Shown: positions 2,173 through 61,621, numbered from the stretch's first letter. The stretch: DNA of 64,000 nt from Candidatus Hydrogenedentota bacterium (GCA_016182605.1 JACPGE010000016.1:1-64000), one strand, 5' to 3'. Translations and numbers: made by a program. Notes: generated by a model not told the origin, from the letters alone.

Positions 2173-2640
2173 TTACGATACGCTGTCGAAGGCGCCGCAA
2201 AGCGCCTCGTAGTAGGCTTCCTGCTCCATCTGAACCAGGCCCGCGCCGTACTTCTCGCAGAGATTCGTATTGGCGATCTGGCCATAGTTGATGGCCGCGG
2301 CAACATAGGCAACGAAGAGCGGGAGCAACTCCGGGTGGTCCTCGAAGCGGGTGGCGATGTGAAGCTTGCAACAGCGGCCCCCCTCGTCGCCGTCGAAAAA
2401 AGGCTCGGCGAACTGATGCTCGTCGATACCCTCGTCGGAGAAGACCAGCGATGTGGGGTAGCGCAGACAATCGGGATCGGAGAGGAAGGCGGCCAGGTTG
2501 CCCTTGTCGAGCGGGCCGCCAAGTTTCGCCACCGTACGCTCGACCGCGCGCTCGGCATGATCGAGCAGCAGCGCATCGAGCGCCTCAATGGAGGCTTCTT
2601 CGCTCATATTCAACAGTGGATCGTCTGCGGGTTCGTGCAT
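2173..2640 (-). CDS. Unknown acidic protein downstream of the octaheme cytochrome
   Basis: 155 residues if the ATG at 2640 is used; a longer frame to 2724 exists but would nearly abut the upstream stop, and its first 28 residues look non-conserved. The protein is acidic, has no signal peptide or membrane segment, and matches no family I recognise. It has a lone Cys-Cys pair (GGRCCKLHIATRFEDHPEL) and an Ala/Tyr-rich helix (FVAYVAAAINYGQIAN). It is the last gene in the direction of the cytochrome operon, 99 bp after the octaheme gene, so it may be co-transcribed and could be an assembly or accessory factor. That link rests on position only. Confidence 0.6.
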   Translation of the reverse strand: MHEPADDPLLNMSEEASIEALDALLLDHAERAVERTVAKLGGPLDKGNLAAFLSDPDCLRYPTSLVFSDEGIDEHQFAEPFFDGDEGGRCCKLHIATRFEDHPELLPLFVAYVAAAINYGQIANTNLCEKYGAGLVQMEQEAYYEALCGAFDSVS

Positions 2641-2739: not shown

Positions 2740-4182
2740 TCAGTTCTTGTACCGATCCTGGAACTCTTTCATGCGCTGTTCGCGCTCGGCCTTCTCGGCA
2801 GGATCCATCTTGTTCAGATACCAGTTGTGGTTGCTGGAATTCAGAATCTCGTCCAGCTTGGCGTGAAGGGCATCCGCCGCCTGCACCTTTGCCGCATCGC
2901 CAGAAGCGCGCCCCTTTTCAATGAGTTCTTCGAGCTGGGGCACGAACTCGGAATAGAAGTGCTTGGCCACCTCGTAGGTGCCATGCCAATGCGTGATGTC
3001 CGGCCCCATCATGGAGACGCCATGACGCGCGCGGCGCCCTTCGTGGTGCCAGATTTCGTACCAAGTCCAGTCGATCTCGTTGGAAAACTCCACGGGCTTC
3101 ATGAGCGGCTTCGCGAGCGCCATGAGTTCCAGGCCGGGCTCGGCAAACTTCTGATGGTACAGATCCAGCAGGCCGTCGTACTGCAGATAGAACGAGGTGA
3201 CATAGTCTTTGTTGTGGCAATTGAGGCACACATTCTCCATGTTGGCGCGGCGCACCTCCCAGGACACGTCCGCACCAGGGAGCCCAAGCTTCGCGTCGGA
3301 GACTTCCGGGCGGATGGAGATGGCCGGGCGGTTGTTCCAACTGATGCGCATGCCCACATCGTGGGTGACCGGCTGGTCTTTCGTCGCGCTCATGTGGCAC
3401 GTGGCGCAGGTTGGCGCGGCGCTGTAATCTTCGCCCACCACCCACTTCGGACTGGAGAGGTTCATCTTGTCGATGTTCGCACGGAACGCGATGCCATGCT
3501 TGGATTCGTTGTAGATCTCGATCTGCGGGTGGTCCGGGCCCATGTGGCACTTGCCGCAATTCTCCGGCTGCCGCACCTGCTCCACACTGAAGGCGTGGCG
3601 CGAGTGGCAGGCGCTGCACGACCCTTCCGAACCGTCGGGATTGATACGCCCGATGCCGGAGTTGGGCCACGTGGCCGGGTCGAGCTTGCCGTTCTCCATC
3701 ACCTTCACTTCCGAACCGTGGCATTGCCAGCAGCCGTTTACCGCGGCCGCGGAAACGCCCATGGGGAACATGGGCGTGATGAAATTGTTGTTGCCCTCCA
3801 CCACCTCGGCGAGCGTGTTGTCCAGCGATCCCAGAATGCGCGCGGCCTTGGAGTGGTGAGAGGCCGTGAACTCGCCCACTTCCTTCTCGTGGCAGCGTCC
3901 GCAATCCTTGGGGCTCACGATCGTGGAGATCAGTTCGCCGTAGTGTTCGTACACGTCCGGATCTTCCTTCTCCGCCTTGTGGCACTCGAAGCAGGCGATA
4001 TTCCCGCGGAAGTGCTTGCTGTCGCCCCACTGTTCGTAGATAACGGGGCTCTCTTTCTTGTGGCACTCGATACACAACGCGGACTGGGGGGAAACCTCCG
4101 CGAGCATGTACCCGGCGGCGCCCGCGGGGCCGGCGGTCAGCGCCGCCAGCATGGCGAACAGCACGATCAGTTCGTTCTTCAT
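2740..4182 (-). CDS. Octaheme c-type cytochrome, hydroxylamine oxidoreductase (HAO) family
   Basis: 480 residues with a Sec signal peptide (LIVLFAMLAALTAGPAGAAG), so periplasmic. Eight CxxCH haem sites: CIECH 37, CFECH 64, CGRCH 94, CWQCH 151, CSACH 189, CGKCH 209, CATCH 259 and CLNCH 319. The distal helices after haem 8 carry WHHEGRRARHG and MMGPDITHWHGTYEVAKHF, the region of HAO that bears the tyrosine cross-linked to the catalytic P460 haem in ammonia oxidisers. Here that position seems to be Ile (GPDITHWHG), by alignment from memory. HAO relatives lacking the tyrosine are thought to work reductively (nitrite or hydroxylamine to ammonium). ATG overlaps the NrfD stop (ATGA), so translation is coupled. 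It is most likely the catalytic subunit of a quinol-linked complex. Confidence 0.88.
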   Translation of the reverse strand: MKNELIVLFAMLAALTAGPAGAAGYMLAEVSPQSALCIECHKKESPVIYEQWGDSKHFRGNIACFECHKAEKEDPDVYEHYGELISTIVSPKDCGRCHEKEVGEFTASHHSKAARILGSLDNTLAEVVEGNNNFITPMFPMGVSAAAVNGCWQCHGSEVKVMENGKLDPATWPNSGIGRINPDGSEGSCSACHSRHAFSVEQVRQPENCGKCHMGPDHPQIEIYNESKHGIAFRANIDKMNLSSPKWVVGEDYSAAPTCATCHMSATKDQPVTHDVGMRISWNNRPAISIRPEVSDAKLGLPGADVSWEVRRANMENVCLNCHNKDYVTSFYLQYDGLLDLYHQKFAEPGLELMALAKPLMKPVEFSNEIDWTWYEIWHHEGRRARHGVSMMGPDITHWHGTYEVAKHFYSEFVPQLEELIEKGRASGDAAKVQAADALHAKLDEILNSSNHNWYLNKMDPAEKAEREQRMKEFQDRYKN

Positions 4183-5447
4183 GATACCTCTCCTTTTATG
4201 GCCGCATCAGTGGCCCGGGGGACCCCTGAATCCTTCGAAAATGTTCCGTTCATGATGGGTATGGCCAGGTGCACCATCCACGAAAAGAGGAGCAGGCCAA
4301 AGGCCCAGATCCCGACGCACACAAGCACCTCGTTCACACTCGGCAGGTACTCGACGATATTCCCAAGCGGCGTGGGGATGAAGCCGGGAATGATGAGGCC
4401 CATGCCCTTCTCAATCCAGATGCCCACAAACGCAAGCACGCAGGCCACGTTGAGGAAGCCGCGCCGGCGCGCCACGGGCGGCGTGATGAGGATGGCTGCG
4501 GCGATGACTTCCATGACGATCGCCGTCCAAATCCAGGGCACGAGCAGATCGTAGGTGTGGCCGTTGTGCTCCAGGCCAAAGAAGAGGTACTGCGCCGACG
4601 CATTGTGAAGGGCGGCCGAGTAGAACTCCTTGAAGGCTTCACAGAAGAGCATGAAAAGATTGATGAGCAGCGACGCAGTGACAATCTGCCGCAGCAGGGT
4701 GTAGGCGTCTTCACTGACCTTCAGGTGGCTGAGGCGCTCCATGATCTGAAATGCAATGATGAGAATGCCCGGTCCGGCGGTGAAGGCAGAACCCAGGAAA
4801 CGCGGCGCCACGATCGCGGCGTTCCAGAAGGGGCGGCCAACGAGGCCCACATAGAGAAACGCCGTGACCGTGTGGATGCTGACGGCCCAGGCGATGGAGA
4901 TGAAGACGAACGGAACATAAAAGAGCGGCGTGGGTTTGCGCTTCATGTATTTCATGAAGAGCAGGTAGCCGCAGATATGGAGATTCAAGACCAGGTAGCC
5001 GTTCAGCACGATCACGTCCCACGAGAGCAGCGAGGTGGGAAAGTTGAACTTGCCGATCCAGGGAATCAGGTGCCAGAACCGATCCGGGCGGCCGAGGTCC
5101 ACCATGACAAAGAGCAGACACATGATGATGGCGGCGATAGCGAGCAACTCGCCATAGAGCACGACATCGTGCATGTCCTTGTTGCGGTAGATGTAGGCAG
5201 GAATGACCAGCATCACGGAGGCCGCGGCGACGCCGACGAGAAAGGTGAAGTTCGCGATGTACGCCCCCCAGGAAACCTGATCGGTCATACCGGTGGCCGC
5301 GAGACCATCGACAAACTGCCGCGTGTATGCGTTGCCGCCGATGACGGTGATTACGGTTAGGACCGCCATCCACAGGTAGAACTGGCGGGTGCCGTCGAAA
5401 CTCAATTGGAAGGCGCGTATCAGAAACCGGACGTATTCTTTGATCAT
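4179..5447 (-). CDS. NrfD/DsrP-like integral membrane quinol module
   Basis: 422 residues, about ten hydrophobic helices, belonging to the NrfD/PsrC family that exchanges electrons between the quinone pool and a partner ferredoxin subunit. Seen in the sequence: FYLWMAVLTVITVIGGNAYT helix 1, a conserved VDLGRPDRFWHL loop, and a C-terminal SWMVHLAIPIMNG. Start set at 5447 (MIKEYVRF), 10 bp after the ferredoxin stop, rather than the upstream ATG at 5501, which would overlap the ferredoxin gene. The stop overlaps the octaheme cytochrome start by four bases. Together with the ferredoxin it forms the NrfCD-type membrane half of the predicted complex. Confidence 0.92.
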   Translation of the reverse strand: MIKEYVRFLIRAFQLSFDGTRQFYLWMAVLTVITVIGGNAYTRQFVDGLAATGMTDQVSWGAYIANFTFLVGVAAASVMLVIPAYIYRNKDMHDVVLYGELLAIAAIIMCLLFVMVDLGRPDRFWHLIPWIGKFNFPTSLLSWDVIVLNGYLVLNLHICGYLLFMKYMKRKPTPLFYVPFVFISIAWAVSIHTVTAFLYVGLVGRPFWNAAIVAPRFLGSAFTAGPGILIIAFQIMERLSHLKVSEDAYTLLRQIVTASLLINLFMLFCEAFKEFYSAALHNASAQYLFFGLEHNGHTYDLLVPWIWTAIVMEVIAAAILITPPVARRRGFLNVACVLAFVGIWIEKGMGLIIPGFIPTPLGNIVEYLPSVNEVLVCVGIWAFGLLLFSWMVHLAIPIMNGTFSKDSGVPRATDAAIKGEVS

Positions 5448-5457
5448 CCCCGTGCCC

Positions 5458-6381
5458 TCACTTGTCGAAGTAGTAGAAGAACCGGGGGATTGTCCCCGCA
5501 TCTTCTTTCAGAATGTAGACCCGCTTGTTGCGAAGGATGAAGCTGATCTCGCTGTCCGGGTCGAGCATGTTGCCGAAGACCCGCGCCCCCGTGGGACACA
5601 CCTCCATGCAGGCCGGGTTCTTGCCCTGGCGCGTGCGGTGCAAACAGAAGTGACACTTCTCCACCACGCCGCGCGGCCGGATACGGTTGCTCAGGTAGCC
5701 CATCTCCGGGTTGATCTCTTCCTTCGGAATCTCCGGCTCGGAGAAGTTGAAGCGCCGCGCTTCATAAGGGCATGCCGCCATGCAATAGCGGCAGCCGATG
5801 CACCAGTTGTAGTCGATCACCGTGATGCCGTCGGATTCGGTCCAGGTCGCCTCCACGGGGCAAACCTTCGTGCAGGGCGGGTTCTTGCATTGCTGGCACT
5901 GCACGGGCATGTAGAATTTGCCGTCCTGCGGCACTTCCTCATGCTCGTAGTAGTGATCCGATTTCTCCACGTTCAGCGATCCGCTCGGCAGCTCCAGCAC
6001 CTTGATATACTGAATCCCCGGATCGTGCGACTGGTTGTTTTCTTTCATGCAGGCATACACACAGCGGCGCGAACCGTTGCAGCGCGTGAGATTAAGCGCG
6101 TAACCAAACTCGACGCCTTCAATGGGCTTGTAATCCTTGATGTTCACCCGCGCGCCGTAGCGCACGGCAATCTCCGTCTCCAGGCGCTTCATGATCACGT
6201 CCAGATCTTCGGGGCTGAGGCGCTTGTAGTGCTGCTGCAAGAACGCGCTGAGGCTCGTGCCCAGCTTCGAGTTGCGCAACGGCTCCAGCACGCCCGCGGC
6301 CGCCGCAATGGCCGCCATCGTGCCGATGCCCGCCTTCAAAAAACTCCGCCGGCCGCTCGTGGGCCGTATGGCTTCACTCAT
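5458..6381 (-). CDS. Tat-exported ferredoxin subunit with four [4Fe-4S] sites (NrfC/HybA/DsrO type)
   Basis: 307 residues. The N-terminus carries a twin-arginine signal (SGRRSFLKAGIGTMAAIAAA), so the folded protein is exported. Four cysteine sets are visible: CNGSRRCVYAC, CQQCKNPPCTKVCP, CIGCRYCMAACP and CHFCLHRTRQGKNPACMEVC, the pattern of NrfC/HybA/PsrB-like subunits that pass electrons between NrfD and a periplasmic enzyme. The ATG overlaps the stop of the upstream tetraheme gene (ATGA), and NrfD follows after 10 bp. The usual catalytic partner in NrfABCD would be the pentahaem NrfA; in its place this operon has the octaheme protein. Confidence 0.92.
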   Translation of the reverse strand: MSEAIRPTSGRRSFLKAGIGTMAAIAAAAGVLEPLRNSKLGTSLSAFLQQHYKRLSPEDLDVIMKRLETEIAVRYGARVNIKDYKPIEGVEFGYALNLTRCNGSRRCVYACMKENNQSHDPGIQYIKVLELPSGSLNVEKSDHYYEHEEVPQDGKFYMPVQCQQCKNPPCTKVCPVEATWTESDGITVIDYNWCIGCRYCMAACPYEARRFNFSEPEIPKEEINPEMGYLSNRIRPRGVVEKCHFCLHRTRQGKNPACMEVCPTGARVFGNMLDPDSEISFILRNKRVYILKEDAGTIPRFFYYFDK

Positions 6382-7004
6382 GACGTGGCCCCTTCTGACT
6401 CGTGGCGCCCGCCGCCTCCCGGACGCGCTTCAAAGCGCGAATAGGGCGGCGGTGGATCCGGGATCATGGGTTTGAAAGCCGGGTTGTGGGGATCGTGGCA
6501 CTGCACGCACAGCAGCCGCTTCGCGGGCTTCTCCGGGCCTTCCTGCCAATAGCCGTTTTGACGGCCGTGGACGCCCGCCTCCCACTCCCGGTAGGTCGGT
6601 CCGTGACACTTTGCACAAAGCCGCGCGGGCGTCTCTGCGGGAATAGCTGATCCATCGTGGTTCACATACGCGTTGCGGTCTTCCGTGTGGTGACAATTGA
6701 TGCACCGCGTGTTCATGCCATGGTTAAAACTCTTGTAGATCTCCGCGTGCTCGCCCTGCAGGTCTTGCTGGCGCACCGGATTCTGAAAGTCGGTGTGGCA
6801 CTCCGAACATTTGTACTCGAAACCTGTGCGGCGGTTGCGCAGGGGCCGGTACTCGCCACGGACCGGCGTGGTGTCGAAGACATCGCCATTTAGCGCGCGC
6901 GCATAGACCTCCGCAGGCATCACGGGCTCACGAAAACAGGAACTGCACAGCAAGAGCAGCACGGCACAGGTCATCCCGCCCATAACGCGGCCTGCTTTTT
7001 CCAT
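6378..7004 (-). CDS. Tetraheme c-type cytochrome, probable lipoprotein
   Basis: 208 residues from the ATG at 7004. A longer frame exists, but its first 43 residues are not signal-like. The start MEKAGRVMGGMTCAVLLLL is followed by a Cys in a lipobox-like position (LCSSC), so the protein is probably anchored outside the membrane. Four CxxCH motifs: CSECH, CINCH, CAKCH and CVQCH, plus extra His residues that could act as sixth ligands. The C-terminal 30 residues are Pro/Gly rich. First gene of the operon; its stop overlaps the ferredoxin start. It probably shuttles electrons to or from the octaheme enzyme, or plays the part of NrfB in nitrite reductase operons. Confidence 0.85.
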   Translation of the reverse strand: MEKAGRVMGGMTCAVLLLLCSSCFREPVMPAEVYARALNGDVFDTTPVRGEYRPLRNRRTGFEYKCSECHTDFQNPVRQQDLQGEHAEIYKSFNHGMNTRCINCHHTEDRNAYVNHDGSAIPAETPARLCAKCHGPTYREWEAGVHGRQNGYWQEGPEKPAKRLLCVQCHDPHNPAFKPMIPDPPPPYSRFEARPGGGGRHESEGATS

Positions 7005-53622: not shown

Positions 53623-55350
53623 TCAGGGCTCCTGGCGCCAGCGACCGAAGAAGAAGAGGATGCAGGTGGCGTAGAACAGGATGAGCAGGTCTCCAATGTA
53701 GCGGAAGAAGTCCGCAATGGGGTTGCCCATGCCGGCGTTGCAGCCAGAGGGGGTGTTGGCGTCTATATACTCCTCGAGTTCGTCCTGGGAGATGGTCCCG
53801 CCATCCCCGCCGCTCAGTGCTTCAAAGACTTCCATGGTCACGGTCGGATCGAACGCGACGACTTCCTCGAAGCTGAGGGCGCCGTCCGCATTGGTGTCAA
53901 TCGCTGTGAAGTTCTCCACAAGCGATTCCGCCAATTGAACTATCGGATTCTCGCCTTCGCCTTCGCCTTCACCTTCACCTTCACCTTCGCCTTCACCTTC
54001 ACCTTCGCCTTCACCCTCGCCTTCACCTTCACCCTCACCCTCACCCTCGCCTTCACCTTCGCCTTCACCTTCACCTTCACCTTCGCCTTCACCTTCACCT
54101 TCACCTTCACCCTCGCCTTCACCCTCGCCTTCACCCTCGCCTTCACCCTCGCCTTCGCCTTCACCTTCACCTTCACCTTCTCCTTCTCCTTCTCCTTCTC
54201 CTTCTCCTTCGCCTTCGCCTTCGCCTTCACCTTCACCTTCACCTTCACCTTCACCCTCGCCTTCACCTTCACCTTCACCTTCACCTTCACCTTCACCTTC
54301 ACCTTCACCTTCACCTTCACCTTCACCTTCACCTTCGCCTTCGCCTTCGCCTTCGCCTTCGCCTTCACCTTCGCCTTCACCTTCACCTTCGCCTTCGCCT
54401 TCACCACTTACCATATGCATGGTGGAATCGGTGCTGGCGCGGTAGTTGTCATCGCCGCTGTAGTTGGCGGTGAGATCGTGGGTGCCCAGGCTGAGTGCGG
54501 TGGTCATAAAGGTGGCGACACCGGTACCGTCCACCACCGCGGCGGCGGTCAAAATGCCGTCAATATCGGAACTGATTGCCACGGTGCCGGTGGGAGTGGG
54601 ACCCATGGAGAGCGGGGTAATCGTGGCGGTGAGTGTTGCGGATTCGCCGAATATGGACGGAGTGGGCGTAATCAAGAGGGTGGTCAGGGTATCGGCGATG
54701 ACGTCCGCGAAGAAGGAATCACTGTTGTTGGCGGGGTCCGGATCGTTCGTGGTGCTTTCCGCCGTGGCGCCGGTGATGATGGAGGCGTCAGTCAAGGGGG
54801 CGTCCGCCGTTACGGTAATTTCGCAGACGGCCTGTGCAGCGGCGGCGAGGGTGCCCACGTTGAGCTGGAAGAGGTTTCCGGATGCGCTGCCCACGCCGCA
54901 GGTGTCGCTCTGGTAATTCAGCGCGGCATCCAACTGCACGGCGATGAGGGTGTTCAATGCGTCGTCCGGGCCCAGGTTGGTGAGGGTCAGGGTGTAGACA
55001 AAGGTTTCGCCGTCGGCGATGGGCTCGGCGGTGGTGTCAATATCAAGCTGAAGGTCAGCGGTGGGCACAGCGGTTACGGTGGCGTCGTTTGGTGCGCCGG
55101 TATCGGGGTCGTCGGTCAGGGCGGTGGTGAAATTGTCTCCGGAGAGCGTCCCCTGGACGGAGACGGCATTGTCGCCCGCGGGCAGCGAGGAGTCGACGGT
55201 GGCCTGGAAGATCACTGTGACTTCGACGCCCGGCGGGAGATCGCCGAGGAGGGATTGAATGGTTTCGCCGGAGGCGAAGGCCAAAGAAGGTGCGAATACG
55301 GCGATGAGGAGGGCCACGAGGAAATTCGTGAAGGGGTGATAGTTTCGCAT
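53623..55350 (-). CDS. Secreted protein with 76 Gly-Glu dipeptides, EF-hand and C-terminal anchor
   Basis: 575 residues. Sec signal ([19 protein letters not shown]), then two DUF11/Ig-like beta domains ([17 protein letters not shown] .. [26 protein letters not shown] .. DLTANYSG), then a strictly alternating (Gly-Glu)76 segment, then an EF-hand ([12 protein letters not shown], intact 12-residue loop) with a second degenerate one, and a C-terminal anchor [26 protein letters not shown], hydrophobic, RWR. The ATG at 55350 lies 4 bases after the stop of the 2088-residue gene, so both share a transcript. Acidic linker plus EF-hand suggests Ca binding at the cell surface. Confidence 0.8.
53950..54405. 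repeat. Hexamer-type repeat encoding (Gly-Glu)76
   Basis: 456 bases of GGN-GAR codons (read on the minus strand). Third positions vary (GGT, GGC, GGA; mostly GAA, some GAG), so the DNA is a degenerate six-base repeat rather than a perfect one. Two or more other frames also stay open over it, producing Ala/Phe/Thr and Lys/Val/Ala-rich shadow frames. Confidence 0.9.
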
Positions 55351-55354
55351 GATA

Positions 55355-58300
55355 TTACTCAGCCCCATCGTTGGATTGCGCGGATTGGATATGTTGGTCA
55401 GTGGGGCCGGTATCGGGTGGTGGACCGCTGCCGCTCTCATTGAATGGTGATGGCAAGCGGCGTTCTCCGACGGTGAGCCCTCCATGCATCAGATCGTCGC
55501 GGGCATCGGTGGTGTAGCTATCGTCGAGGCCGAGCGCGTGGCCCATTTCGTGCATGATGGCGGAGAGCAGGTCCATGCGCCCGGCGGAGTCAAGTTCAGG
55601 ACGTGCGTAGCGGCGCACAGCCGATCGGGCGTCGGGAAACTCGTTGTCGTCAAGCGGCGTTGGATCGATGAACCAGCCGTATCCGGCAGCATCCTCGTCG
55701 ATGATGATGTGGTACGGGGTGGCGGTGCCGAGATAGGAACCGGGCATGTCGGCGATTTCGAAACTAAGCGATCGAAGATGCGACACTTGTGTGGCGTTCA
55801 GACCATTGGCGGACCAGTGCGCGATCGCCGCCGCGGCCAGGGAGTCTAGCTCGGCCTGTGTGAGGACGTGCAAGCCGCCCAACTGCGCCGCGTCGACGCC
55901 GCCGGGCGCTGCGAGCAGCGGCAGAGGCGGGGCAGCGGCGCCAAAGGTCACCGTACCGCTGACACTGATTTGGGCAGACGTAACCGGATTGCCCCCCACG
56001 CTGTTGGCATCATCCAGCTCGTTGGCGTTGACGGCAGCACTTGGCGAAAGCTGGGTGACGTTTACTGTTCCCCCGGCGAGTTGCCGCAACCGCATCATGG
56101 TGCCGTCGCCCGCCTGTCCAGCAATGGAATCCGCATCGATGTTATTGTTCGAGATGCTGGCGTTAATGGTGCCCGGCGCCGTCGAATTGTTTTCTTGCAC
56201 AATAATGGCGCGGCTGTTGTCCACGTCGCTGATTACATTATTCCGGATGGTTACGTTTGTCGTGCGTGAGAAGGCTTGGGCGGCGATGCCGTGATTGACG
56301 TTGATGGCGGCAAAGTTGCTCATTTCCCGCACCGTGTTGCCATCGATAAGGACTGTCACAGGGTTCGACGTACTTGTGCTGCCTTCGTTCTGAACCCGTA
56401 TGCCGAAGCCCAGACTTGAGCCGGAGCCCGAAACCCCGGATGTGCCCACAATATTGTCTTGAAACTTTCCTGTCACGGTACCCGTGCTGCTTGCAGCGAC
56501 GAAGAGATTCAACCCGTGGGAACGATTCTCGGTGGCGGTATTGCCGTTGACATCAAAGTTGATGCTTCCACCCTGTGCCGCCGAGACGGATATCGCCGCG
56601 TTGTTGTCGGTAAAGGTCGCGCCGGATATGTTTGCGGTTACTGTGCCGCTCGTGCCGGAATGGTCGGCCTGTATGCCCGTCGCCGTGGTGCCATCTGGAT
56701 TGGCGTTGCCCGTGTACGTGCCGCCTGTGACGGTCAGCGTCATGACGGCGCTGCCCAGGGCGAGAAAATTGACGAGGTTGCCATGCGCATCGAGTGTATT
56801 GCTGTTGTTGCTTGAGATGGTATCGCCCGTCAATCTGAAGTCTGCGAGTGTGCCGGTGGAATTGCTGACCTGGAGCTCGAATTCCTTGTTGTTGCTGATG
56901 ACGCAATTGGTGAGGCCGGCCGGATTGGCGCCACCGCTGGCCGTGCCGGTAAGCTGATAGAAATCAACGCCGAGTTCGTCAGCATTCGAGGTCGTCAGAT
57001 CGCCGTTGTTACTGACCGACGTGCGCGTCATCTGGAATCCATTGACGGTGTGCCCGAACACGCCGCTGGCATTATTGCCCGTAATGTTCATGTAATCGAG
57101 CGAAACCTTGCTCGTGTTGCTCAGAAAGACCCCATTCGTTCCACTGATCACAAGGGATGTGACGCCATCGTAGGACAAGAGTGAGGGTTCGCTAAAGTCC
57201 CCGCCCTTGCCACTAATCGTTCCACCCGATCCATTGTTGGCCCCGCCGCCGTCGCCTGTGACCGATAATCCGCCGGTGCTGCCTGTGTTGATAAGTACGA
57301 TTCCGGGCGCAGAACCACCGGTGGACGTGACGGCTGTAAACACGAGGCCAGTGGCTCCAATCGTAGTGTTCTGGACGTTCACGGCCGCTGCGCCGCTACT
57401 GGAATTGATGCTGTTGTTGGCACCCGTTACGCTGATGGTGCCGCCGCCGGTGGCGTTGAAGCCTGTGGCGGAGGTGGTGTCGATGTCGAGGCCGCCACCG
57501 CCGAAGTTGACGGTGCCACCGGTATTGTTGGTGGTGAGGGTGACGGCCGCGTTGGCGCCCGTGTTCAAGGATTTAGTGGGGAAGTCGACATTGATGGCGC
57601 CGCCGTTGCTGTTGGCGACGCGGACGCCTTGTGCGGTGGAGGTGAGGGAGCCGGTTTGGAAGGTGACGGTGCCGCTGTCGTGGTTGTCGATGTCGATGGC
57701 GAAACCGGTGTTGTCGGAGATGGAGCCGCTGTAGGTGACGTTGGCGTTGCTGCTGCTGAGATTGAAGGCGGTACCGGTGGGGTTGATGATGGATGTGCTG
57801 GAACCGAAGCTGAAGGTGCCGCTGGAGCCGTTGAGGATATCGATGCCTGCGTCACCGCCATTGAGGGTTGTCGAACCGTTGAAGTTGTAGGAACTCGTGC
57901 TGTCGGCGTTGTCGAACTGGAGGCCGGTGCCATTCGAGGCGTTCAACGTGCCGTTGAAGGTGATGGCGCCGGTGGTGTGTCCGCCCGCGACGCTGACGAG
58001 GGCGCCGGCATTGCTCTTGGAGACGTCGCCCGCATAGGACAAGCTGACGGTGCCGCCGCTGACGTTGACCGCCGCGGAGGCTGCGGTGGTGCCGTTGATG
58101 CCCACGCCGCCGGAACTCACGTTCATGGCGCCGGTGACACCAACGAGGTTAATGCCGGAGCCCGGAGAACTGGAGGATTCGAGCACGTCGAAGGTGACGG
58201 TGTTGCCAAACGCGGCGCTGGTCGAGATGTTAATGGCGCCGCCGGTGCCGGTGAGGCTGAGGTTGTCAATCGTGACCGTGCCGGCCGCGCCGCCGCTGAT

Positions 58301-61300
58301 CTTGAAGAAGCCGGGGGTGTTGTTAATGTTGAAGCCGCGCAGGGTGTTGCCGCTGGCCAGGGTCACACCATGGCTGACGGCGGACGTGATAACCGGGCGC
58401 GTGCCCGCATTGAGCAGGGTAATCGTATCGACCACGAGGGCCACGCCGCCGCCTTCGAGGGTCTGGTTGTCGAGGAGGGTGATGCCGGTGGTGTAATCGG
58501 TGCCGGTGTTGGCGAGGTAGATGCGCTGACTGGTGGCGGGCTTGCCGGCACCGGCGCCGTTGGCGGCGTTGAAGTCTGCAACGGTGCGGAAGGGATTGGA
58601 GGTGACGCCGGTGCCGCCCGATCCGCCGCCCGTGTTGTTGATGAACCAGACGACGGTGCCGACGGTCATGGTGACGGTGGCGGGTGCGCTGGAGGCGACG
58701 CCGTCGGAGATTTGGTAGGTGAAGGTGTCGGAGCCGCTGAATCCTGCGGGGGGCGTGTAGGCGAAGGAGCCGTCGGCGAAGATACTGACGCTGCCGCCCT
58801 GGGTGGTGGCGCCTGCGCTGGCCACCACGCTGAGGCTGCCCGTAGCGGTGTCGGGATCGGAGGCGCCGTCTTCAAGGTTGAGCGTGCTGGTGACGGCGGG
58901 GGTGCCGGCCGCGCTTGCCGTGAGGCCGCCGGAATTGGCGACGAATTCGACGTTGCCCACGGTGGTCCCGGCCTGGGCTGCGGCGGTGGGCGCGTCGCTC
59001 ACACCGGCGATGTCGATGGTGACGGTGGCGGTATCGGTGCAGTCGCCGTCGGTGATGGTGTACGTGAAGGAATCCTGATCGGACTGGCCGGTGGCCAGGC
59101 CCTGGAAGACGGCGAGGGGATTGTAGGTGTAGTTGCCGTTGGCGAGGAGGGTGACCTGCGCGCCGGAGGGCAGGGCGGTGGCCACGCCGATGGCAACGCT
59201 GGAGCCGTTCAACTCACTCACGGTGATGCTGTCCCCCGTGTCGGGCTCGGTGTCGTTGGTGAACACGTCGCCCATGGCGTTCGTGTCTTCGTCGGTGCTG
59301 TCCGAGTCGTCATTGGCGGTCGGGCAGTCGTTCGCGCCGTTGATGGTGAGGGTAACCGTGGCGGTATCGGTGCAGGTGCCGTCGGAGAGGGTGTAGGCAA
59401 AGGTGTCGGAGTCCATGGCGCCTGCGGCGAGGGTTTCAAACTGGCCATTGGGATCGTAGGCGAAGGCGCCGTTGCTGTTGAGGGTGAGGAGGGCGCCGGA
59501 GGGGAGGGTGATTTCCATGCCCACGTTGCCGGCCACGCCGTTCACTTCGGTGATCGTGAGGGTGTTGGTGCTGTCGGGATCGGTGTCTGCGCCGCTGCCG
59601 TTGTCTACGAGGACATCGCCATTGAGCACGGTGTTCTCGCCGGTGGCGGCGGCATCGTCCTGGGCAGTGGGGCAGTCGTTCGCGCCGTTGATGGTGATGG
59701 TGACGGTGGCCGTGCCGGTGCAGTTGGTGTCGAAAATGGTGTAGGTGAAGTTGTCGGCGCCGGTCTCGGTGGCGGCGAGGCTGTTAAGGATGCCGTTGGG
59801 ATCGTAGGTGAAGGTGCCGTCGCTGTTGAGGGTGACCAGTGCGCCGGAGGGCAGGGCGGTGGCCATGCCGATGGCGGCGTTGGAGCCGTTCAGTTCGGTG
59901 ACCGTGAAGGTGTCGCCGGTGTCGGGGTCGCTGTCTGCGCCGCTGCCGTTGTCGTCGAGGACGTTGCCAGGCACGGTGCTCTTCTCGGCCACGCTGAAGG
60001 CATCATCCTTGCCGATGGGGCAGGTGTTCTCGCCTTTGATGGTGACGGTGACCGTGGCGGTGTCGGCGCAGGCGCCGTCGGAGAGGGTATAGGCGAAGGA
60101 GTCGGTGTCCGTGCCGGCATCGTCCAGGCTGTCGAAGACGCCGTTGGGATCGTAGGCGAAGGTGCCATTGGCGTTAAGGGTGAGGAGGGCGCCGGAGGTG
60201 AGGGTGATCTGGACGCCGATGCTGGCGGAGACGCCATCGACCTCGGTGACAGTGAGGGTGTTGCTGGTGTCGGTGTCGCTGTCCGCGCCGGAACCATTGT
60301 CCACGAGGACATCGCCGTTGAGGACGGCGGTCTCGGTGGTGTTCACGGCGTCGTCGGCCGCAACGGGGCAGTCGTTTTCGCCGTTGATGGTGGCGGTGAC
60401 GGTGGCAATGTCGGTGCAGGTGCCATCGGAGACGGTGTAGGTGAAGGAATCCGTGTCGCTTTCGCCGGCGGCGAGCGCTTCAAACTGGCCGTTGGGATCG
60501 TAGGTGAAGGTGCCGTCGCTGTTTTGGGTGAGCACCGCGCTGGAGGGCAGGGTGATGCCCATGCCGACGTCGCCCGCGACCCCGTTGACCTCCGTGATGG
60601 TGAGGGCGTTGGTGGTATCGGGGTCGCTGTCCGCGCCGCTGCCATTGTCAATCAATACGTCGCCGGCTGTCGCGGCGCTTTCGTTCACTGAGACGGCGTC
60701 GTCCTGCGCAACGGGGCAGTTGTTTTCGCCGTTGATGGTGAGGGTGACGGTGGCTGCGTCTTCGCAGAGGCCGTCGGAGAGGGTGTAACCGAAGGCGTCG
60801 GTGTCGCTTTCCCCCGCGGCGAGGCTGTCGAAGGCGCCGTTGGGATCGTAGCTGTAGGCGCCATCGCTGTTGAGGGTGAGGAGCGCGCCGGAAGGCAGGA
60901 CAATGCCACTGCCTACATCCGCGGAGTCCCCGTTCACTTTGGTGACGGTCAGGGTGGCGCCCGCATCGGCGTCCGAGTCCGCGCCATTGCCGTTGTCGCT
61001 GAGGACATTGCCCATGCTGGTGGCGGATTCATTGAGCGCCGCGGCGTCATCCTGCGCGATGGGGCAGGTGTTGACCAGCACGGTGACGAGGGCCTGGCGG
61101 GAGACGATGCCGTCGTTGTCTTCCACGGTGTAGCGGAAGGTGTCTGGGCCGGGGACGCCGGTGGAGGTGTAGGTGATAACGCCGGTGCCGGTGTCAATCG
61201 AGGTAGAGCCCGCAGTGGGGGCCTGGACGATCTGGACGGTTGCGGGCTGGAGGGTGCCGTCGACATCGCGGTCGTTGTCGAGGACGGGAATGGCGATCAT

Positions 61301-61621
61301 GCCGGCCTGGGCGACGCCTGCGGTATCGTCGAGGGCGATGGGGCCAATCTTGACGGAGCCTGGGACCAGGGTGAGGTTGCCGTCGAGGGGGACGGTGATC
61401 TGCATGGCCTGGGCATCCGCATCGCCGGAATTCTGGAGGATGACGGTGTACTCAATCGTGTCGCCGCGATCCACATGGCTGTCGCTGTCGGCGTCGGTCA
61501 CGAGGGCGTCGTCCAGGGTGGACTCGACGGCGGGCTGCGCGTAGGTGCTTGGGGCCCAGAGGGTTGCGGTTAGAAGCAGGGTGCCCAGCAGGCAGCGGCT
61601 GAAGGTGCGGGAAGAGGCCAT
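55355..61621 (-). CDS. Giant secreted adhesin-like protein: Ig-like repeats, beta-helix, C-terminal metzincin site
   Basis: 2088 residues; AAGGAG upstream of ATG 61621. Signal (LLGTLLLTATLWAPSTYAQP), a DUF11-like domain (VDRGDTIEYTVILQNSGDAD), then a linker unit followed by six ~112-residue cadherin/VCBS-like units each beginning C-P-x-A/G-x-D-D and holding a Cys before DxATVT, e.g. NDCPVAADDAV and DGTCTDIATVTATINGEN. Next a long Gly/Ser/Thr/Asn-rich region with the period of a parallel beta helix (about residues 970-1900). The last ~180 residues hold SAIMHEMGHALGLDDSYT with Met-turn DDLMHGG, a metzincin-type zinc site with Asp as third ligand, as in snapalysin. The operon continues with the Gly-Glu protein. 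Confidence 0.85.
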   Translation of the reverse strand: MASSRTFSRCLLGTLLLTATLWAPSTYAQPAVESTLDDALVTDADSDSHVDRGDTIEYTVILQNSGDADAQAMQITVPLDGNLTLVPGSVKIGPIALDDTAGVAQAGMIAIPVLDNDRDVDGTLQPATVQIVQAPTAGSTSIDTGTGVITYTSTGVPGPDTFRYTVEDNDGIVSRQALVTVLVNTCPIAQDDAAALNESATSMGNVLSDNGNGADSDADAGATLTVTKVNGDSADVGSGIVLPSGALLTLNSDGAYSYDPNGAFDSLAAGESDTDAFGYTLSDGLCEDAATVTLTINGENNCPVAQDDAVSVNESAATAGDVLIDNGSGADSDPDTTNALTITEVNGVAGDVGMGITLPSSAVLTQNSDGTFTYDPNGQFEALAAGESDTDSFTYTVSDGTCTDIATVTATINGENDCPVAADDAVNTTETAVLNGDVLVDNGSGADSDTDTSNTLTVTEVDGVSASIGVQITLTSGALLTLNANGTFAYDPNGVFDSLDDAGTDTDSFAYTLSDGACADTATVTVTIKGENTCPIGKDDAFSVAEKSTVPGNVLDDNGSGADSDPDTGDTFTVTELNGSNAAIGMATALPSGALVTLNSDGTFTYDPNGILNSLAATETGADNFTYTIFDTNCTGTATVTITINGANDCPTAQDDAAATGENTVLNGDVLVDNGSGADTDPDSTNTLTITEVNGVAGNVGMEITLPSGALLTLNSNGAFAYDPNGQFETLAAGAMDSDTFAYTLSDGTCTDTATVTLTINGANDCPTANDDSDSTDEDTNAMGDVFTNDTEPDTGDSITVSELNGSSVAIGVATALPSGAQVTLLANGNYTYNPLAVFQGLATGQSDQDSFTYTITDGDCTDTATVTIDIAGVSDAPTAAAQAGTTVGNVEFVANSGGLTASAAGTPAVTSTLNLEDGASDPDTATGSLSVVASAGATTQGGSVSIFADGSFAYTPPAGFSGSDTFTYQISDGVASSAPATVTMTVGTVVWFINNTGGGSGGTGVTSNPFRTVADFNAANGAGAGKPATSQRIYLANTGTDYTTGITLLDNQTLEGGGVALVVDTITLLNAGTRPVITSAVSHGVTLASGNTLRGFNINNTPGFFKISGGAAGTVTIDNLSLTGTGGAINISTSAAFGNTVTFDVLESSSSPGSGINLVGVTGAMNVSSGGVGINGTTAASAAVNVSGGTVSLSYAGDVSKSNAGALVSVAGGHTTGAITFNGTLNASNGTGLQFDNADSTSSYNFNGSTTLNGGDAGIDILNGSSGTFSFGSSTSIINPTGTAFNLSSSNANVTYSGSISDNTGFAIDIDNHDSGTVTFQTGSLTSTAQGVRVANSNGGAINVDFPTKSLNTGANAAVTLTTNNTGGTVNFGGGGLDIDTTSATGFNATGGGTISVTGANNSINSSSGAAAVNVQNTTIGATGLVFTAVTSTGGSAPGIVLINTGSTGGLSVTGDGGGANNGSGGTISGKGGDFSEPSLLSYDGVTSLVISGTNGVFLSNTSKVSLDYMNITGNNASGVFGHTVNGFQMTRTSVSNNGDLTTSNADELGVDFYQLTGTASGGANPAGLTNCVISNNKEFELQVSNSTGTLADFRLTGDTISSNNSNTLDAHGNLVNFLALGSAVMTLTVTGGTYTGNANPDGTTATGIQADHSGTSGTVTANISGATFTDNNAAISVSAAQGGSINFDVNGNTATENRSHGLNLFVAASSTGTVTGKFQDNIVGTSGVSGSGSSLGFGIRVQNEGSTSTSNPVTVLIDGNTVREMSNFAAINVNHGIAAQAFSRTTNVTIRNNVISDVDNSRAIIVQENNSTAPGTINASISNNNIDADSIAGQAGDGTMMRLRQLAGGTVNVTQLSPSAAVNANELDDANSVGGNPVTSAQISVSGTVTFGAAAPPLPLLAAPGGVDAAQLGGLHVLTQAELDSLAAAAIAHWSANGLNATQVSHLRSLSFEIADMPGSYLGTATPYHIIIDEDAAGYGWFIDPTPLDDNEFPDARSAVRRYARPELDSAGRMDLLSAIMHEMGHALGLDDSYTTDARDDLMHGGLTVGERRLPSPFNESGSGPPPDTGPTDQHIQSAQSNDGAE

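Follow-up and report, generated by a model that had tools for sequence, protein, structure and literature searches.

A reductive-type octaheme cytochrome of the HAO family encoded with a DsrJOP-like membrane module in Candidatus Hydrogenedentota: a probable nitrite reductase complex

What does an octaheme cytochrome of the HAO family do when its gene closes an operon for a tetraheme cytochrome, a polyferredoxin and a membrane protein of the NrfD family? The question is raised by four genes on the minus strand, from position 7004 down to 2740, of a 64,000-nucleotide stretch from a Candidatus Hydrogenedentota bacterium (GCA_016182605.1, JACPGE010000016.1:1-64000; hereafter the window). The answer we favor, and consider probable, is that their products form a periplasmic nitrite reductase complex dependent on menaquinol, in which electrons would run from the NrfD/DsrP-like subunit through the ferredoxin (FDX) and the tetraheme cytochrome (THC) to the octaheme cytochrome c (OCC), and in which nitrite coming from the periplasmic nitrate reductase NapA would most likely be reduced to ammonium.

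All four genes are open frames, in the order THC-FDX-NrfD-OCC. THC (6378..7004; 208 residues) is a tetraheme c-type cytochrome with four CxxCH motifs that matches Cytochrome_C7 (PF14522, 26.8 bits, cut-off 24.8), and four hemes are found in 37 of 38 related proteins. The original prediction of a tetraheme lipoprotein is sound as to the hemes and probable as to the lipid anchor, the lipobox being imperfect in the window (LLCSSC), though relatives have LSSC or LAGC. FDX (5458..6381; 307 residues) is a DsrO/NrfC-like polyferredoxin with a Fer4_11 domain (PF13247), and its RRSFLK motif agrees with the predicted Tat export; the four clusters predicted with it, on the other hand, have 15 and not 16 cysteines at their disposal, Ser104 replacing the Cys in the first cluster motif. 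Of 67 sequences, 20 have Ser or Asn at position 104. Because this Cys is missing, one of the clusters may be [3Fe-4S], a type that is listed for QrcC (PMC8076601). The third gene (4179..5447) encodes a membrane protein of 422 residues, putatively a DsrP-like quinol-binding subunit, whose match to PF03916 (133 bits) bears out its assignment to the NrfD family; such a subunit and a multi-cluster ferredoxin in one operon are the marks of an NrfD-like energy-transducing complex. OCC (2740..4182; 480 residues) follows as the predicted catalytic subunit. The close coupling claimed earlier (ATGA at 6378, 10-bp gap at 5447, ATGA at 4179) is confirmed by coordinates and frames, with ATGA overlaps at 6381-6378 (THC/FDX) and 4182-4179 (NrfD/OCC), and a 10-bp gap at 5457-5448 between FDX and the NrfD-family gene.

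The nature of the reaction depends first of all on OCC, which matches PF13447 with 82.7 bits (cut-off 21.9), has a Sec-type signal peptide (by eye) and contains exactly the eight CxxCH motifs expected of it, with every one of its 16 cysteines lying within them. Its Asp217 and His218 align with the catalytic Asp267 and His268 of N. europaea HAO, and the pair is invariant in 26 sequences. The column of the tyrosine that cross-links to the heme in oxidative HAOs (N. europaea Tyr467) was fixed from residue 467 of PDB chain 4fas, and six further tyrosine-bearing sequences were aligned to it (chain 4n4j, Scalindua HAO and hydrazine-dehydrogenase paralogues). Because the PDB profile search with OCC stopped short of the C-terminal part of canonical HAOs, the tyrosine was placed by way of the Scalindua paralogues and PDB sequence fragments. 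All seven oxidative sequences have Tyr in this column, Ignicoccus-type proteins have Phe, and OCC has Trp399, as do its orthologues and the Onr-like paralogues of Scalindua. The tyrosine had been predicted to be absent, with an alignment to known HAOs named as the check, and the tryptophan in its place leads us to reject an oxidative HAO (or hydrazine dehydrogenase) identity for OCC. Met391 lies eight residues before Trp399, and both are invariant (Met391 in 26 relatives). According to PMC8940962 (after Haase et al.), Trp at the Tyr position paired with a Met is the signature of the reductive Hao of Campylobacterota, in whose nitrite-reducing enzyme both residues are reported to be important, and OCC carries it, as judged against that published text and not against an aligned epsilon-Hao sequence. 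Reductive HAOs lacking the tyrosine have also been published from Phycisphaerae, microbial mats and Deferribacter, besides Campylobacterota (PMC11266412, PMC8940962, PMC6896113). Altogether Trp399, Met391 and the retained Asp-His pair support the earlier reading of OCC as a reductive-type enzyme of the HAO family, as far as residues can predict it. The opposite direction, in which hydroxylamine, hydrazine or NO would deliver electrons to menaquinone in a Qrc-like manner, could appeal to the ability of NrfD-family modules to reduce quinone (PMC8076601), but it seems very improbable, given that OCC has a tryptophan where all the oxidative relatives tested have the cross-link tyrosine, and that the NapA context described below is reductive.

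The tree keeps the seven tyrosine enzymes together on one side (support 92/62), whilst OCC groups with Ignicoccus-like octahemes (100/99); several branches are long, and the deep order is therefore unsure. Among solved structures the nearest is 4qo5, the octaheme of Ignicoccus (E 1e-50), followed by 6h5l and Nitrosomonas HAO. An AlphaFold model of OCC, built from a narrow alignment of 26 sequences, was poor (pLDDT 59) and was not used. Two other octaheme identities were rejected on the cysteines, namely that of a CxxCK octaheme nitrite reductase, as all of them are in CxxCH, and that of MccA. The heme motif of MccA has a long spacing between its two cysteines, and with all 16 cysteines of OCC used in CxxCH such a motif is impossible there. 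Elsewhere in the family, two Scalindua genomes (L121, L122, L124, L125; L102, L115, L116) have 13 and 9 PF13447 matches, some of them split or fragmentary, which include three OCC2-type proteins about 58-59% identical to the OCC of the window.

The membrane pair had been labelled NrfCD, and here architecture and sequence part ways, for the layout fits whilst the scores do not. The NrfD-family protein reaches 411 bits against the NCBIfam DsrP model (cut-off 350), passing as its equivalog, as opposed to 30.5 bits against NrfD (cut-off 347.6). FDX is nearest to DsrO without reaching its cut-off (181 bits, 200 needed) and falls far short of NrfC (114 bits, 377.6 needed). The DsrP cut-off is also passed in five relatives, three beside OCC and two with no OCC adjoining. 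A multiheme cytochrome, a ferredoxin and an NrfD-family protein in succession is moreover the order of dsrJ, dsrO and dsrP. THC, being tetraheme, differs from the triheme DsrJ of DsrMKJOP, and neither in the window nor in the related loci that were read were DsrM and DsrK noticed as neighbors of it, the rest of the genome lying beyond that reading. Nor is there a pentaheme NrfA with CxxCK, as in NrfABCD: OCC has no CxxCK, and no PF02335 match was found in its own genome. Because of the DsrP/DsrO and NrfD/NrfC scores, OCC is predicted to rest on a DsrJOP-like module rather than to replace NrfA within an NrfABCD complex.

Such a module invites the thought that it feeds an MccA-like octaheme reducing sulfite, thiosulfate or polysulfide. 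This would agree with the DsrP and DsrO affinities and the J-O-P order, with the nearest structure coming from the archaeon Ignicoccus, in which a sulfur reductase is discussed, and with a proposal that HAO-family proteins in Desulfobacterota from vents have a sulfur role (PMC9213671). We nevertheless regard a sulfur-compound reductase as unlikely, considering the want of room in OCC for the long MccA motif, the Trp/Met pair shared with nitrite-reducing Hao, the fact that no DsrMK was noticed adjoining the module in the loci that were read, and two genomic patterns, namely the repeated linkage to NapA, NapD and NapB and the exclusion of NrfA in Hydrogenedentota.

Whether OCC and the module belong together was examined in related loci, taken as the best 80 of at least 565 relatives from a scan of genome contigs. 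The conservation figures thus concern close relatives and, since these are the closest 80, lean upward. Gene order could be scored where the upstream flank reached 4.2 kb or more, in 61 loci: THC-FDX-NrfD-OCC is found 46 times, OCC-THC-FDX-NrfD 3 times, FDX-NrfD-OCC once and OCC alone 11 times, so that the module adjoins OCC in 50 of 61, an arrangement beyond what chance would give. Genome comparison had been named as what could refute the co-conservation of the four genes, and with the exact order in 46 of 61 loci it upholds it. OCC, FDX and the NrfD-family protein have correlated distance matrices (r = 0.77-0.88, Mantel p = 0.001), an outcome that shared history alone could produce as well. 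The closest named relatives among the matches listed are Candidatus Hydrogenedentota metagenome-assembled genomes (77-85% identity), and module-bearing records include Verrucomicrobiota, Planctomycetota (Scalindua among them), Desulfobacteraceae, Myxococcales, Bdellovibrionales and Latescibacterota.

The substrate is suggested by the company that OCC keeps. Of the 80 loci, 13 have a NapA, identified by NF010055 and direct alignment (TIGR01706 being unspecific at a low cut-off); most of these are 61-76% identical to the NapA of locus L052, and a few matches are truncated where the contig ends. In Verrucomicrobia loci OCC is followed by NapD (after some 60 bp in L025), NapA and a tetraheme protein with a NapB domain. 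The genome of the window (assembly 98% complete) has a NapA too, 62% identical to that of L052 and scoring 908 bits against NF010055 (cut-off 904). This NapA lies on another contig (C91; L140 7828-10820), where a tetraheme protein with a NapB domain follows it. The genome has one HAO-family protein and no match to NrfA or NirK, NirS and cytoplasmic nitrite reductases having been outside that search. NapB normally has two hemes; similar tetraheme forms recur in OCC-linked nap operons. This genomic context points to nitrite as the putative substrate of OCC.

How far nitrite would be reduced is a further matter. OCC could stop at NO, as the Kuenenia HAOr does, or hand hydroxylamine to a hybrid-cluster protein (Hcp), and would then serve denitrification or detoxification and not ammonium formation. 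The tyrosine-less HAOr indeed makes NO from nitrite (PMC12485887), for Phycisphaerae octahemes either NO or ammonium has been suggested as the product (PMC11266412), and for Deferribacter, which forms ammonium from nitrate without NrfA, a Nap-Hao-Hcp route has been proposed, the Hao and Hcp being those of its Nap cluster (PMC6896113); in one genome (G010), too, a hydroxylamine reductase/hybrid-cluster gene follows OCC. Yet besides G010 a single locus of the 80 (L079) has Hcp, OCC is far from HAOr-like sequences in the tree, and its Met/Trp pair is that of the Campylobacterota enzyme, which is reported to form ammonium in vitro, all of which makes an end at NO or hydroxylamine rather unlikely, and reduction to ammonium the better supported outcome.

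If OCC does the work of NrfA, the two could be expected to avoid each other, and in Hydrogenedentota they are almost mutually exclusive. Among 40 genomes one has both, 12 have OCC only (one by a contig-edge match), 21 have NrfA only and 6 neither (Fisher one-sided p = 3.5e-5; p = 4.8e-4 in genomes at least 90% complete), and one genus has both states in different species (G001 versus G004-G006). In Planctomycetota the exclusion is weak, NrfA being found in 1 of 20 genomes with a close OCC versus 70 of 274 (p = 0.025). The idea that an octaheme enzyme has taken the place of NrfA in an NrfABCD-like complex therefore holds in part: an NrfA-like job is supported by the NapA operons and the near-exclusion in Hydrogenedentota, whilst the place itself is not inside NrfABCD.

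Several observations weigh against a dedicated nitrite reductase complex. The membrane pair resembles, by its NCBIfam scores, a module of sulfur metabolism. OCC stands alone in the 11 testable loci mentioned, and the THC-FDX-NrfD trio also occurs without OCC (G017, G024), so that the partnership is not obligatory and the module can serve another partner. When NrfA labels are shuffled within families the exclusion weakens to p = 0.056, and a good part of the contrast is thus one between families; Verrucomicrobiota show no NrfA depletion (5 of 31 versus 39 of 194, p = 0.41), and a Verrucomicrobiota sample with one close-OCC genome only gave no power to the comparison by itself. Lastly, no biochemistry of the OCC clade was found in the literature searched.

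As for the other partner, the OCC-free trio of G024 adjoins a DUF2339 membrane protein. Three Hydrogenedentota loci (L141, L142, L147) have the trio without OCC, with only THC and a partial NrfD in L147; a DUF2339 membrane protein stands beside the trio of L142, and similar proteins were seen by eye in L141 and L147. Possibly this protein has taken the place of OCC as partner of the electron module.

With these reservations, we infer the electron path, the physical complex, the substrate and the product as follows, drawing the path from what is known of NrfABCD and the NrfD family (PMC12285233, PMC8076601). The DsrP/NrfD-like subunit would oxidise menaquinol within the membrane and pass electrons to the clusters of the periplasmic FDX, from which they would reach the hemes of the membrane-anchored THC and then the heme chain of OCC, down to the catalytic heme where nitrite, supplied by NapA, would be bound. 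There OCC would carry out a six-electron reduction, most likely to ammonium. NrfD-like subunits have been proposed to translocate ions (PMC8076601). A wider claim, that a distinct and possibly proton-translocating nitrite-ammonifying complex, made of a DsrJOP-like module and a reductive HAO and more energy-yielding than the NrfHA type, stands in for NrfA across several phyla of uncultured bacteria, is tentative and somewhat doubtful.

A fifth conserved gene of 155 residues and no known family lies downstream of OCC (2173..2640, minus strand). It was counted by a six-frame profile search, open reading frame picking in GC-rich loci having favored antisense frames. By this count 36 of the 80 loci carry it on the strand of OCC, either immediately behind OCC or following napDAB. 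The protein has no signal peptide (by eye) and no match in Pfam or NCBIfam; its AlphaFold model is confident (pLDDT 93), and a fold search against PDB gave no match below E 0.25. Some relatives carry Cys-rich tails. From its position it is probably an accessory factor, for maturation or regulation. Farther along the window, an array of a 6-bp unit (CCTTCA, 75 copies, 89% matches; 53954-54405) gives, when its minus strand is translated, a long open frame of Lys-Val/Lys-Ala repeats, and a protein of 2088 residues with Big_9 and cadherin-like domains (55358-61621, minus strand) derives in part from a 348-bp tandem repeat array.

As genomic scoring of nitrate ammonification usually goes by nrfA, the module described here would be overlooked in Hydrogenedentota and some Planctomycetota, and its NrfD-family gene, because it passes the DsrP cut-off, can be misread as a sign of sulfate respiration. 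If the proposed activity is true, it shows one more route by which a reductase of the HAO family can be connected to the quinone pool, and it explains nitrite disposal in NrfA-free genomes with NapA.

Reductive HAOs, NrfD modules and octahemes with NrfCD-like partners (MccACD) are each known; their present combination, in which a ferredoxin-NrfD module accompanies an octaheme of the HAO family, was not found described in the open-access literature searched, supplements and most subscription papers lying outside it. A comparable catalytic subunit is the epsilon-Hao of Campylobacterota, of the same family and, by its published description, with the same Trp for the cross-link Tyr and Met eight residues before; these are nitrite/hydroxylamine reductases in Nap-using organisms. 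Their known donors are NapC/NrfH-type cytochromes, in place of which a ferredoxin-NrfD-type module is found here. The Ignicoccus octaheme 4qo5 and the Kuenenia HAOr share with OCC the family and the lack of a tyrosine cross-link, but they are distant in sequence, no NrfD module is described for them in the literature searched, and HAOr pairs with another small cytochrome. MccACD, an octaheme sulfite reductase with NrfC/NrfD-like subunits, is a precedent for the layout (PMC8076601), although its octaheme belongs to another family and its substrate is sulfite. The DsrJOP half of DsrMKJOP has the same order of multiheme cytochrome, ferredoxin and NrfD-family protein and a DsrP whose cut-off is passed here, the differences being a tetraheme instead of the triheme DsrJ, no adjoining DsrMK and the added octaheme. 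E. coli NrfABCD, finally, has the same succession of quinol, NrfD-family protein, Tat-exported ferredoxin, small multiheme cytochrome and multiheme nitrite reductase, from which the system of this work differs in having an octaheme of the HAO family instead of the pentaheme NrfA with CxxCK, a tetraheme at the position of NrfB, and a membrane pair nearer to DsrOP.

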